NCBI RefSeq assembly: GCF_022808935.1 | Contig: NZ_JAKZFR010000001.1 | Location: 620,001 to 684,000, forward strand | Direction of reading: 5' to 3' | Length of the DNA stretch: 64,000 nt | Origin: Geothrix sp. SG200 | GTDB taxonomy: Bacteria; Acidobacteriota; Holophagae; Holophagales; Holophagaceae | Part shown: piece after piece, positions 33,139 to 63,124 of the stretch | Layout of the letters: every line of letters starts with the position of its first letter | How positions within the stretch are numbered: the stretch's first letter is position 1 | The notes under the pieces: generated by a model | Database searches by the model: none | Told to the model about the DNA's origin: nothing | The model's input: only the letters and a program-made list of their open reading frames with translations | Made by a program: the position numbers and the translations under genes

Positions 33139-34047
33139 ATGGATGGGACACAGGCGGGGACGCCGGATCCGAGAGGCCTGGCGGCCCTGATCCTCGGAGC
33201 TTCGCTCCTGGGGTTCGCGGCCATGCTCGTGCGCTGGGCCGCGCCCGCGGGACCGCTGGCGGTGGGCTTCTACCGCATGGCCATCGCCCTGCCGCCCGTG
33301 GCCTGGCTCGCCTGGCGGGCCCGGAACTCGGCGAGGCGCGACGCCGGGAAGTCCCGTCTCTGGGCCGGCGTGGCAGGCCTCTGCTTCGTGGGCGACCTCT
33401 GGATGTGGCACTCGTCGCTCCATCACACGAGCGCCGCCAACGCCACCTTGCTGGTGACCCTGGCGCCCATCTGGGTGGCGGTGGTCTCCGTGGTCTGGCT
33501 CGGGGCCAGGCTGCGGCGCCGCTTCTGGCTGGGCGTGGCGCTGGCCCTGGGCGGAGCCCTCATCCTGGGCCTCGCCAAGGGCGCCCGCTGGGGCACGGGC
33601 CTGGGCGAGCTGCTGGGGGCCCTCGCCTCCCTGGCCTACGGCGCCTTCACGCTGGCCCTGGGGCGTGCGCGCCAGGAGCTCAGCGCCCCGGAGGCCCTGT
33701 TCTGGGTGGTGCTCTGCTGCATGGCGGGGTTCGGGGTCCTGGGCCTCGCGCAGGGAGAGGCCTTCGCGGGCTATCCCACCCGGGCCTGGTGGGCCCTGGC
33801 CGGCCTGGGCCTGGTCGTGCAGGTGGTGGCCTGGTGGCTCATCACCTGGGGCATCGGCCACGTGTCCACGAACCTGGGCGCCATGGGCCTCATGACCCAG
33901 CCCGTGGCCACGGTCATCCTGGGGTGGCTGTTGCTCGGGGAGTCCGTCCGGCCGTTGCAAGGCGTGGGCACGCTCCTGGTTCTGGCGGGCATCGCGGCCT
34001 GCGCCCTGGCGCCGCCCCTGCCGGAGAAGAAGCCTACTCGGGCGTGA
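33139..34047 (+). CDS. EamA/DMT-family transporter (first copy)
   Basis: A 302-residue inner-membrane protein with ten hydrophobic spans in two EamA repeats. The ATG at 33139 is chosen; upstream in-frame codons overlap dacB and are unlikely. The family-typical features are present: LLGFAAMLVRWA, the SSLHHTSAANATLLVTLAPIW segment and the second-repeat TQPVATVILGWLLLGE. The substrate is unknown. Its last codons and stop lie inside a duplicated 65-bp fragment of the ABC ATPase gene (see 34034-34098), so its natural C-terminus may have been altered. Confidence 0.85.
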   Translation: MDGTQAGTPDPRGLAALILGASLLGFAAMLVRWAAPAGPLAVGFYRMAIALPPVAWLAWRARNSARRDAGKSRLWAGVAGLCFVGDLWMWHSSLHHTSAANATLLVTLAPIWVAVVSVVWLGARLRRRFWLGVALALGGALILGLAKGARWGTGLGELLGALASLAYGAFTLALGRARQELSAPEALFWVVLCCMAGFGVLGLAQGEAFAGYPTRAWWALAGLGLVVQVVAWWLITWGIGHVSTNLGAMGLMTQPVATVILGWLLLGESVRPLQGVGTLLVLAGIAACALAPPLPEKKPTRA

Positions 34048-34098
34048 GGACGCCACGTTCCTCGCGGTAGGCGAAGAGCTCGCCGAAGCGGCCCCACG
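34034..34098 (-). pseudogene. Duplicated 3' fragment of the ABC ATPase gene
   Basis: Read on the reverse strand this gives the same last 20 residues and stop as the neighbouring ATPase (FGELFAYREERGVLTPE). It matches 34265-34329 over 65 bases with 5 differences, all at third codon positions. It is a remnant of a once-functional, diverged second copy. A perfect palindrome GGACAGCGCC-T-GGCGCTGTCC (34157-34177) lies between the copies. Confidence 0.85.
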
Positions 34099-34264
34099 GG
34101 GCCCCCTCCGCGATCGCAAGCCAGAGGCTCCGACTCCGCGAGGGAACCGAGCGGGAGGACAGCGCCTGGCGCTGTCCGTCAGGCGGAGGCGCAGCGGGAG
34201 CGGGAGCACGCGACTAGATGTCGCGTGCGATCGGGGCGGTCGTCAGGTGGGGCCAGGCCGGATG

Positions 34265-35563
34265 CTATTCCGGTGTGAGGACGCCGCGCTCCTCGCGGTA
34301 GGCGAAGAGCTCGCCGAAGCGGCCCCACGCGACGAGCGTCTCGAAGGTCTTCTCCGGATCCTCCATGGGCAGGCGCGTGGCCAGCTCCTGGAGGAGGACC
34401 TCCTCGGACAGCTCGCCATCCTCGAGGTGCATCATCTCCTGCACCACGCGGAAGAGCCGCAGCTCGAGGAGCTGGGCCCGCCAGAGGTCCTTGCGGTCGT
34501 CCATGTTGGCGTTCACGAACCGCTTGCCCAGCGGCGTGAGGAGGACGGCGCGCTTGGGCGTGTCCACGAGATCCAGCATCTCGGCGGCCTTCACCGTGGT
34601 GAGCACCTTCTCGAAGGCGACGTGGGTGTGCGAGGCCACCTGAAAAAGATCGCTGGTGCCGCCCTGCGTCTCCAGGAACTCCAGCAGGCCCAGGATGTCG
34701 CCGCTCTGGGCCTGGGGGAGGGGTTCCACCTGGTCCTCCTGGACCGCGGCGCTGGGGATGGGAGCGGTGACCTGGACGTCGGGCAGCTCCGCGCTGGTGA
34801 AGATGTCGTGGAGGTGGTCCACCAGCTTCATGAACTCCGGCGAGCGGCTGTCCCGCGGCCGGGCCATGGGCACATCCACGATGGTGCGGAGGGTGCCGGG
34901 GCTGCCGGAGAGGATGGCCACGCGGTCGGCCATCAGCAGGGCCTCGCGGATGGACTGGCTGACCATCACGATGGCGGAGGGGTTGCGCTCCTTGTCCGCC
35001 CAGATGTCCATGATCTCGGCGCGCAGCGCCTCGGCCGTGAGGGCGTCCACCTGGCTGAAGGGCTCGTCCATGACCAGGATCTCGGGGTCCACGGCCAGCG
35101 CCCGGGCCACGCCCACGCGCTGCTTGGTGCCGCGGGAGAGCTCGCGGGGGAAGGCCTCCTCGAAGCCTTCGAGGCCGACCTTGCGGATGGCCTGGTGGGC
35201 CCGCTCGCGCACCTCGCCCTCGGGCAGGTCGCGGGCGCGGAGCACCACCCGGACGTTCTCTTCCACGGTCATCCACGGATAGAGGGCGAAGCTCTGGAAC
35301 ACCATGGCCACGCCGGGGTTCAGGCCGTCGAGCTTTTCCCCGTGATGCCGGACTTCGCCCTGCGTGGGCGGCATCAGTCCCGCAAGGAGGCGCAGGAGGG
35401 TGGACTTGCCCGAGCCGTTGGGGCCGATGAGGCAGAGGATCTCGTCTGGGCGCACATCGAGGCGGATGTCCTCCAGGACGCGTTGGACCTTGCCGCGGTG
35501 GCCCTTGAAGCGCATCTGCACGCCGCGGAGTTCACAGATGGGGGAGGTGTAGGGCAGCTGCAT
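34265..35563 (-). CDS. ABC importer ATPase with AAA-associated C-terminal domain
   Basis: A 432-residue protein of the nitrate/sulfonate/taurine group. The ATPase part (about residues 10-250) has Walker A GPNGSGKST, Q-loop MVFQS, signature LSRGTKQRV (a variant of LSGGQ), Walker B ILVMDEP and a switch region with VSQS where His is usual. The C-terminal ~160 residues are a helical winged-helix-like AAA-associated domain (TLVAWGRFGELFAY) known from ATPases paired with fused permeases. It lies 8 bp after the permease stop on the same strand. No periplasmic binding protein gene is nearby, so the substrate is unknown. Confidence 0.9.
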   Translation of the reverse strand: MQLPYTSPICELRGVQMRFKGHRGKVQRVLEDIRLDVRPDEILCLIGPNGSGKSTLLRLLAGLMPPTQGEVRHHGEKLDGLNPGVAMVFQSFALYPWMTVEENVRVVLRARDLPEGEVRERAHQAIRKVGLEGFEEAFPRELSRGTKQRVGVARALAVDPEILVMDEPFSQVDALTAEALRAEIMDIWADKERNPSAIVMVSQSIREALLMADRVAILSGSPGTLRTIVDVPMARPRDSRSPEFMKLVDHLHDIFTSAELPDVQVTAPIPSAAVQEDQVEPLPQAQSGDILGLLEFLETQGGTSDLFQVASHTHVAFEKVLTTVKAAEMLDLVDTPKRAVLLTPLGKRFVNANMDDRKDLWRAQLLELRLFRVVQEMMHLEDGELSEEVLLQELATRLPMEDPEKTFETLVAWGRFGELFAYREERGVLTPE

Positions 35564-62126: not shown

Positions 62127-62621
62127 CTAGGTGACGGGTGCGGCCACGATGCGCTTCTTGAGGGAGACGGCCACTTTCACGTCGCCGCCATCCTGGCCCT
62201 GGAACTTGTCGAGGTTCTCGAGGGACTTCTTCTTGGCGGTTTCCGAGGCGACGCGGATGGCGTCGAGCACGTCCACCATGGCCTGGAACTTCACATCCTC
62301 GTCCACCTTCAGGAAGACCTTCCGGTAGTTGAGGGGCTGCAACATCACGGCATCAGGCAGCTTGTCCTTGAGGCCCTGGGCGTCGATCTTGTCCTGCTGG
62401 AGGGTCATGGTCCCGTCCTGATCCACCTGGATCAGGATGTTGTTCGGATCGGGCTTGGGAGGAGTGGCGGTCTGGACGACCTGGGGCACCACCACCTTCA
62501 TGGCCTTGCTGAGACCGGGCACCATCACGATGAAGACGATGAGGAGCACCAGCACGATGTCGATCAGCGGGGTGACGTTGATATCGGTTTTGGCTTTACC
62601 CTTGGCGCCGCCGGTATCCAT
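62127..62621 (-). CDS. exbD: ExbD/TolR-family biopolymer transport protein (second)
   Basis: A 164-residue inner-membrane protein that works with ExbB to harness proton motive force for TonB-type transport. It has a short cytoplasmic N-terminus, one span with the essential Asp (TPLIDIVLVLLIVFIV, about residue 20), and a periplasmic domain ending in KVDEDVKF. Its ATG overlaps the stop of the first exbD by one base. Longer C-terminal tail than standard ExbD (SETAKKKSLENLDK). Confidence 0.93.
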   Translation of the reverse strand: MDTGGAKGKAKTDINVTPLIDIVLVLLIVFIVMVPGLSKAMKVVVPQVVQTATPPKPDPNNILIQVDQDGTMTLQQDKIDAQGLKDKLPDAVMLQPLNYRKVFLKVDEDVKFQAMVDVLDAIRVASETAKKKSLENLDKFQGQDGGDVKVAVSLKKRIVAAPVT

Positions 62622-63124
62622 CAGTTACCCCCTTCCTTCTTGGTGTCCTTGTCCTCGCTGGTCACGATGGACGCCTCGTCGGCGCCACCCTTCCGGCAGG
62701 ACTGGAACAGCTCGTTGATGTACTTGAAGGGCAGGTCGGCGTCAGCCTTCACGAACACGCGCTTGTCGTTCAGCATCGAGACGTTCTTGTTGATGAAGTC
62801 TTCGAGCTGCTGGCGCTGGCCTTCGTTGTCGATGAAGAAGCGCATATCCTTCGCGTCCTTGTCATCGATGAGGATCGGGCCGGGGCCAGTCACGTCGCCG
62901 GTCTTCTGGTCGCGCTTGGAGGTCAGCATGAGGGTCAGGTACTTCTGGCCCGCGTCCTGCTGCTGATCCACCTTCGGGGCATGCTTCGACAGCGGCAGCT
63001 TCACAGCGTTGTTCACGGCGGGGGTGATCACGATGAAGATGATCAACAGCACCAGCACGATGTCCACAAGCGGCGTGACGTTGATGTCGGACTTCATCCC
63101 ACCCTTGGAACCACCTGTATCCAT
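62621..63124 (-). CDS. exbD: ExbD/TolR-family biopolymer transport protein (first)
   Basis: A 167-residue ExbD paralogue with the same N-terminal design (MDTGGSKGGMKSDINVTPLV) and Asp-containing membrane span DIVLVLLIIFIVITP. The periplasmic part differs from its neighbour, with an added segment LTSKRDQKTGDVTGPGPILI, so the two probably form a heteromeric pair or serve different substrates. It lies 59 bp downstream of exbB and overlaps the next exbD. Confidence 0.93.
   Translation of the reverse strand: MDTGGSKGGMKSDINVTPLVDIVLVLLIIFIVITPAVNNAVKLPLSKHAPKVDQQQDAGQKYLTLMLTSKRDQKTGDVTGPGPILIDDKDAKDMRFFIDNEGQRQQLEDFINKNVSMLNDKRVFVKADADLPFKYINELFQSCRKGGADEASIVTSEDKDTKKEGGN

Follow-up and report, generated by a model that had tools for sequence, protein, structure and literature searches.

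The duplicated gene end between an EamA-family transporter gene and an ABC transporter ATPase gene probably marks the insertion of a small structured mobile element, here called E, which would move in a homing-like manner from allele to allele and from species to species, keeping to fixed sites. In the 64,000 nucleotides analysed (the window, from the Geothrix genome G000), the interval between the two copies of the ATPase end is itself a dispersed hairpin element: a search of the own genome with positions 34030-34340 returned 10 matches, and all 9 that lie elsewhere are to this interval. Comparisons with related genomes indicate that the gene received E together with a spacer and a second gene end in its interior, the truncated copy keeping its native flank. 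The interrupted gene survives because its end is duplicated. The features of the locus are compiled in the following table.

Table 1. Features of the EamA-ATPase junction (positions refer to the window).
Feature	Position	Strand	Basis or remark
EamA-family transporter gene	33139-34047	+	Pfam PF00892, E-value 2.4e-31
EamA stop codon	34045-34047	+	within the displaced tail of the ATPase
Displaced (truncated) copy of the ATPase gene end	34034-34098	-	interpreted as native convergent EamA-ATPase junction; 60/65 match and empty sites in relatives
Element E, type B (ACGGGGCCCCCTCC...GGTCGTC)	34096-34244	+	matches to other genome copies; first three bases are the last three of the displaced copy
Nested type A element (GAGGCTCCGACTCCGCGAG...GGCGGAGG)	34124-34188	+	matches L003, L004, L006, L007, L009; alignment to the G023 element
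Perfect 10+1+10 palindrome	34157-34177		forms the variable hairpin in the nested type A element
Variable hairpin of the outer type B element (9+5+9)	34206-34228		corresponds to helix 4 of the family fold
Spacer between E and intact ATPase end	34245-34264		20 bases; similar spacer in G023
Second ATPase-end copy, now in use	34265-34329	-	60/65 match to 34034-34098
Intact ABC transporter ATPase gene, nitrate/taurine-type, with AAA-associated C-terminal domain	34265-35563	-	Pfam PF00005, E-value 3.7e-33; PF09821, E-value 4e-26

The two copies of the ATPase end can be aligned without gaps and agree in 60 of 65 bases (92%) at a start-to-start spacing of 231; read on the ATPase strand, both give WGRFGELFAYREERGVLTPE followed by the stop. 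All five differences fall on third codon positions and are silent, as the first-pass annotation of this DNA had stated, and they lie within the 25 bases nearest the stop codon. Among the six families of direct repeats detected in the whole window (at least 30 nt long and at most 2 kb apart), this pair is the second longest and by far the most alike (92% versus 71-79% for the others). A chance origin of the 65-base repeat is excluded. Another direct repeat of 129 nt with 74% identity, at 62493-62621 and 62996-63124, probably represents a repeated protein domain. Regarding the gene assignments, it must be mentioned that every NCBIfam match of the ATPase gene stayed below its curated cut-off, and that the EamA start at 33139 is our choice among the in-frame ATGs of the open reading frame.

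To compare the locus, 25 loci of Geothrix were inspected. In G008, G009 and G012, which are free of E at this site, there is no insert and EamA passes directly into the ATPase, its stop codon lying 12 bases inside the ATPase tail (counted from the start of the ATPase stop); an identical offset is seen in the left copies, both in G000 and in G023. G021 has EamA too, with an earlier end, and in the nearest relatives, G014, G024 and G007, a different neighbour stands beside the ATPase. E occurs at the same base of the ATPase gene as in G000 in three further genomes, in G001 and G015 beside other neighbours and in G023 as an exact 87-nt element that lacks the nested one. Since G008, G009 and G012 have the same junction without E, the left copy can be regarded as the native one, and the overlap of EamA and ATPase exists independently of E. 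Judged from these alignments, what was added at the ATPase is the hairpin element, the 20-base spacer and the right-hand ATPase end, the left copy being the gene's own original end. The EamA stop had initially been placed in a foreign piece of DNA; it does lie inside the ATPase tail, but this piece is not foreign, given the same overlap in the three insert-free relatives. The first-pass annotation had further explained the fragment as what is left of an additional ATPase gene or of an earlier tandem duplication, most of which would have been deleted. The silent differences between the two ends would agree with such a remnant. However, relatives keep the same junction without any insert, the same architecture recurs at 58 sites, and G023, G001 and G015 carry the same fragment and insert at the same site with no longer copy, a finding in sister genomes that the first-pass annotation itself had named as contradicting its explanation. 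We regard this origin as hardly credible any more.

E is usually 52-87 nt long, and the window copy reaches 149 nt because a second element is nested in it. The nesting of the type A element amounts to a net insertion of 62 nt, the ends of which are ambiguous by a few bases. The perfect palindrome noticed previously between the copies is present, and it belongs to this nested second element. The variable hairpin of the outer type B element is nearly the same in G023, G001 and G015 at the ATPase. A type A element inside a type B element, nested at the inner position known from the window, was also seen in a different gene of G017 (L181, C7, about 52.6 kb). Ten elements were aligned and folded to build a covariance model, called R1. 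The family has a three-way-junction fold, with compensatory changes at 18 of 21 pairs and pairing in 98.1% of the cells among 119 aligned elements, values reached in none of 500 shuffles, the alignment having been fitted to the structure, which favours such statistics. When the pairing partners were shifted by 1-3 columns, pairing amounted to only 41-57%. Moreover, 111 of 115 rows have U.G at one of the pairs, an indication that it is the strand as written that folds. With regard to a MITE of a DDE transposon, which would have terminal inverted repeats and a short target-site duplication, the two ends of E are only partly complementary. Searches with the Rfam covariance models found no family at gathering score in the window region 33900-34500 or at seven loci, but only chance-level matches.

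With R1, 28 elements were found in the own genome at an E-value of at most 1. Among the 41 genomes searched with this model, E is present in 24 of 25 Geothrix genomes and in none of 16 others of the class Holophagae; the sole Geothrix genome without a match, G010, is 72% complete. Furthermore, 53 stretches were recovered from the GTDB contig collection by a pattern scan; their titles read Geothrix, Holophagaceae bacterium or Acidobacteria bacterium. At a given gene, the occurrence of E is patchy between species.

The architecture at the ATPase recurs at most copies of E. An element was counted as flanked by a duplication when a copy of its left flank, ending at most 12 nt from E, recurred within 150 nt to the right of E. 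The test set comprised 136 elements, i.e. the 28 of the own genome and 108 in relatives that were chosen among the matches listed; two at contig ends were left out, leaving 134 testable elements in 24 genomes. A truncated gene-end copy to the left and an intact copy to the right of E were found in 113 of them, representing 58 distinct sites in 23 genomes among the matches listed, compared with 2 of 268 control pseudo-positions 330 bp away. The composite element of the window itself is scored as a miss in this count. In the 113 cases the duplicated segment has a median length of 64 nt (18-235) and a median identity of 95.9%, and the median spacer length is 34 nt (0-143). Nine of the 21 elements that failed are, by eye, composites, tandems or weak copies (L044, L049, L121, L132, L136, L142, L152, L181, L189), and L052 has a 21-base copy; the remainder of the misses, with about a dozen elements lacking a clear gene-end copy, will be taken up again below. 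The orientation is constant, with the truncated copy at the left end of E and the intact gene on its right; E is sense to the gene when it sits in a gene start and antisense when it sits in a gene end.

Many different genes are concerned. Gene starts with E belong to uvrA, miaB, queE, mutL, rsmI, asd, biotin carboxylase, an alpha/beta hydrolase, a ybgC-type thioesterase and a mannose-6-phosphate-isomerase-like protein. Gene ends with E belong to recR, ridA, metK, clpB, prfA, mutL, a XerD-type recombinase, superoxide dismutase, an electron-transfer flavoprotein subunit, Xaa-Pro dipeptidase and the ATPase of the window. These names are best matches to NCBIfam or Pfam, many of them below the full-length cut-offs because the proteins are partial; further genes with E were labelled from their translations alone, namely a MacB-like permease, a heptosyltransferase, a histidine kinase and the end of asd. 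Around 421-425 kb of G000 C1 (L003 / L055), tRNA 3' ends alternate with hairpin inserts, and partial gene copies lie beside E-like elements.

Tandem arrays were observed as well, with eight pairs of elements within 400 nt of each other. In these pairs, the unit of copy, E and spacer stands twice before the intact gene (L030-L031, L035-L037, L039-L044 and L042-L050 in G000, and four pairs in relatives). They might have arisen by re-insertion at the target kept in the restored gene, or by unequal exchange. The same tandem pairs, the exact direct repeats that flank E and the conservation of the fold on one strand (the U.G pair mentioned above) could also be taken as signs that E is a device acting in cis in regulation or recombination, with the duplicated ends being kept for reversible excision. 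However, E lies at gene ends and at gene starts, in many unrelated genes and in a patchy manner between species, and we consider such a device very improbable.

The truncated copy abuts E exactly in 83 of 113 cases, with one base between them in 17 and more in 13, i.e. the left joint is at the left end of E, or within one base of it, in 100 of 113. Two other descriptions of the insertion were dismissed. A simple long target-site duplication fails, because the homology of the copies usually does not extend past the start or stop codon, and this applies to identical copies as well, for example in L096 and L032. A strong target motif was not found either; there is only a weak preference, 51 of 60 non-redundant junctions having a purine at position -3. 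The precise left joint is also important for another scenario, namely homology-facilitated illegitimate recombination after natural transformation, in which incoming DNA with E, spacer and gene end would be anchored by homology on one side and joined illegitimately on the other. Such recombination has been described for bacteria that are competent and, with a low frequency, for E. coli (PMC3240628), and it has been proposed for displaced immunity genes in Vibrio (PMC5361080). It would yield the displaced-end architecture and silent differences; however, random joints would vary in position, and a cut specific for E would be needed in addition, which makes this process on its own an improbable source of the duplications.

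The insertion reading can be examined further at other genes where relatives provide empty sites. In uvrA of G000, the sequence upstream of the truncated start resembles the direct upstream sequence of uvrA in nine E-free relatives, among those listed. Insertions into this gene were independent, at base 199 in G000 and at base 40 in G001. The restored start of G000 is 93.0% identical to the sister G007, the displaced copy 89.9% and the gene body 97.5%. The restored start is not closer to any foreign genome and no donor was found, which counts against the homing-like view. Bases 1-199 of uvrA are also less alike than the next 400 when G000 is compared with each of ten relatives (L278-L288). Of 14 genomes compared at miaB, five carry E (G000, G003, G005, G011, G012), seven have an empty site, and G014 and G001 contain an unrelated insert at a different base of the start. 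The motif GGTTTGG, which stands upstream of the gene in the empty genomes except G013, in a variant form in G002, also precedes the truncated copy of G000 and G003, but not that of G005, G011 and G012. The spacer on the right side of E is unlike any upstream sequence of the empty genomes. By these comparisons, the truncated copy is identified as the native junction at the ATPase and at uvrA, and partly, in two of the five genomes with E, at miaB. The unrelated insert in G014 and G001 is a hairpin-like sequence located 16 bases into miaB (L252, L253, about 1380-1500), and it follows the same duplicated-start plan, which suggests that the duplicated-end architecture is wider than the E family.

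A different kind of insertion was found in G008, where a protein gene is cleanly interrupted by 75 nt of E (L139:801-875, C3), in frame, without a stop codon and without a duplication; there is no target duplication beyond an ambiguity of 1-2 bases. The gene presumably encodes an NADH-dehydrogenase-type membrane subunit, and the site is empty in 9 of 9 other sequences listed. Owing to this case, E alone can be regarded as the element proper, and not every insertion involves a duplication.

How the two copies of a gene end diverge can be deduced from 88 of the 113 pairs, after leaving out 11 with gaps and 14 without a clear reading frame. Truncated and intact copies differ by 189 silent and 70 replacement codon changes, i.e. 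27% replacement, where 197 replacements among 259 would be expected under neutral drift and 61% if the truncated copy alone drifts; the p-values of this comparison take codons to be independent. When only one pair per site is counted (38 sites), the mean is about 96 silent to 30 replacement changes (24%). The first reading of the ATPase fragment, that it was once part of a working gene, is thus strengthened by an excess of silent differences throughout the family. Cruder frame assignments had given 93:135, with frames that were clearly wrong, 155:63 and 127:55; they are superseded by 189:70. Translation of the truncated copies was rejected as the cause of the silent differences, since the excess is alike at gene ends (108:32) and gene starts (81:38). 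Furthermore, the truncated copy resembles its own genome. In 52 of 63 tests, covering 15 sites each shared by at least three genomes, it was at least as near to the intact copy of its own genome as to that of any other (ties counted as own), with a mean distance of 0.042 to the own intact copy versus 0.108. The elements themselves are bound to sites, the nearest neighbour of an E coming from the same gene site in 49 of 55 cases and in at most 13 in 1000 label shuffles. Finally, mismatches between the copies become rarer towards E, amounting to 95, 87, 76, 62 and 38 per fifth of the copy.

Much of this pattern could also be produced by ancient, vertically inherited insertions with gene conversion between the direct repeats and an occasional loss of E by recombination. 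Site-specific lineages of E and the similarity to the own genome are both expected from vertical inheritance, precise loss would recreate the empty sites at the ATPase, at miaB and in the G008 gene, and the thinning of mismatches towards E is what conversion tracts might give. Strict vertical inheritance with conversion therefore accounts for the site-bound lineages and the own-genome copies, but not for the silent excess, because a copy drifting between conversions should gain replacements at a rate well above that seen. Moreover, repeats so close to each other should generally delete E more often than convert. Vertical descent is a possibility that we take seriously while judging it unlikely.

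Site-bound E lineages, truncated copies that match their own genome and silent differences, taken together, fit an element that repeatedly enters E-free alleles at a fixed site. From such genome comparisons, we propose that an allele without E would be opened at the site and repaired from an allele with E. The gene end of the recipient itself would come to lie left of E as the displaced copy, and E would bring the restored end along. In its outer part, the truncated copy would then always consist of recently working sequence of the own lineage, which would explain both the mostly silent differences and the host-like truncated copies. Because E carries no reading frame, the cutting enzyme would have to act in trans. 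However, some observations speak against the homing-like view. The restored copy keeps an intact target, so that a nuclease homing to the site should cut its own carrier, none of the enzyme families searched for accompanies E, about a dozen elements have no clear gene-end copy, and at miaB the native upstream sequence stands beside the truncated copy in only two of five genomes with E, while the empty genome G013 differs.

Several enzyme families were considered as mobilisers of E, and were set aside since their occurrence does not follow that of the element. RAYTs belong to the Y1-transposase family, and a Y1 transposase was detected in only 2 of 25 Geothrix genomes and not in G000, compared with 24 of 25 genomes for E. 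Reverse transcriptase (RVT_1), which a retroelement or a derivative of a group II intron would need, was found in 8 of 25 Geothrix genomes and the TnpB zinc ribbon in 3 of 25, neither of which tracks E. IscB-type proteins were found in 0 of 41 genomes, but the positive control matched nowhere, too. More speculatively, E could be a protein-free homing determinant, the folded RNA or single strand of which is addressed by the adjoining truncated end and directs a host or trans-acting nuclease to E-free alleles. Each E lineage would be bound to one gene site, would renew its address from each new host and would restore the interrupted gene. This stronger form of the proposal appears rather doubtful to us.

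The element shares features with several known systems. To our knowledge, a gene-end-restoring architecture is otherwise known only from fungal mitochondrial endonuclease elements. Mobile endonuclease open reading frames with a foreign gene end have been described in Allomyces atp6, Rhizopus atp9, Mortierella cox2 and Glomus atp6, atp9, cox2 and nad3 (PMC3630166). They are the nearest match to the architecture of E: they likewise lie within a gene near its end, supply a second end that is used and displace the native one, and the differences between the ends are largely silent in both, a horizontal origin being proposed for the fungal open reading frames. However, the fungal elements encode a homing endonuclease and occupy the 3' ends of a few mitochondrial genes, whereas E occurs on bacterial chromosomes, at starts and ends of many genes. 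With 52-87 nt in E and 0-143 nt in the spacer, there is no room for a LAGLIDADG or GIY-YIG endonuclease gene. The nearest bacterial sequence class is that of the REP-like repeats, i.e. REP or GTAG-tagged palindromic repeats that are mobilised by RAYT transposases (PMC3733652). E resembles them in being short, dispersed, structured and non-coding, with several families per genus and sometimes a location inside genes, but differs in being larger, in its three-way junction and in being joined to duplicated gene ends, and 23 of 25 genomes lack a Y1 transposase.

Other resemblances are more partial. Rickettsia palindromic elements are inserted in frame in proteins, and the clean 75-nt element in G008 is like them, whereas most copies of E have a duplicated gene end beside them. 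At their att sites, prophages and integrative elements can substitute for the 3' or 5' end of a target gene. As in these systems, the gene end is restored at E, the native end is displaced, direct repeats stand on both sides and the differences are silent, but E has no integrase or cargo, comprises only 52-87 nt, and is shared among target gene ends that differ. In TnpB/IscB (OMEGA) RNAs, a guide stands next to a structured RNA. E likewise places a conserved fold directly beside target-matching sequence; in contrast to OMEGA, TnpB occurs in only three of 25 genomes and an intact target stays in the carrier. In the open-licence literature, we found no description of such elements for Geothrix or any bacterium.

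If the homing-like interpretation is right, bacterial chromosomes would hold tiny mobile elements that enter housekeeping genes harmlessly by restoring the gene end, among them uvrA, recR, miaB, queE, mutL, metK, clpB, prfA, asd, biotin carboxylase and others. It would also explain gene-end "pseudo-duplications" that are ignored by annotation, and the 58 sites, each with a naturally displaced and a restored gene end, would be available for measuring recombination between species. The testable question raised by these findings is what cuts at the left end of E.
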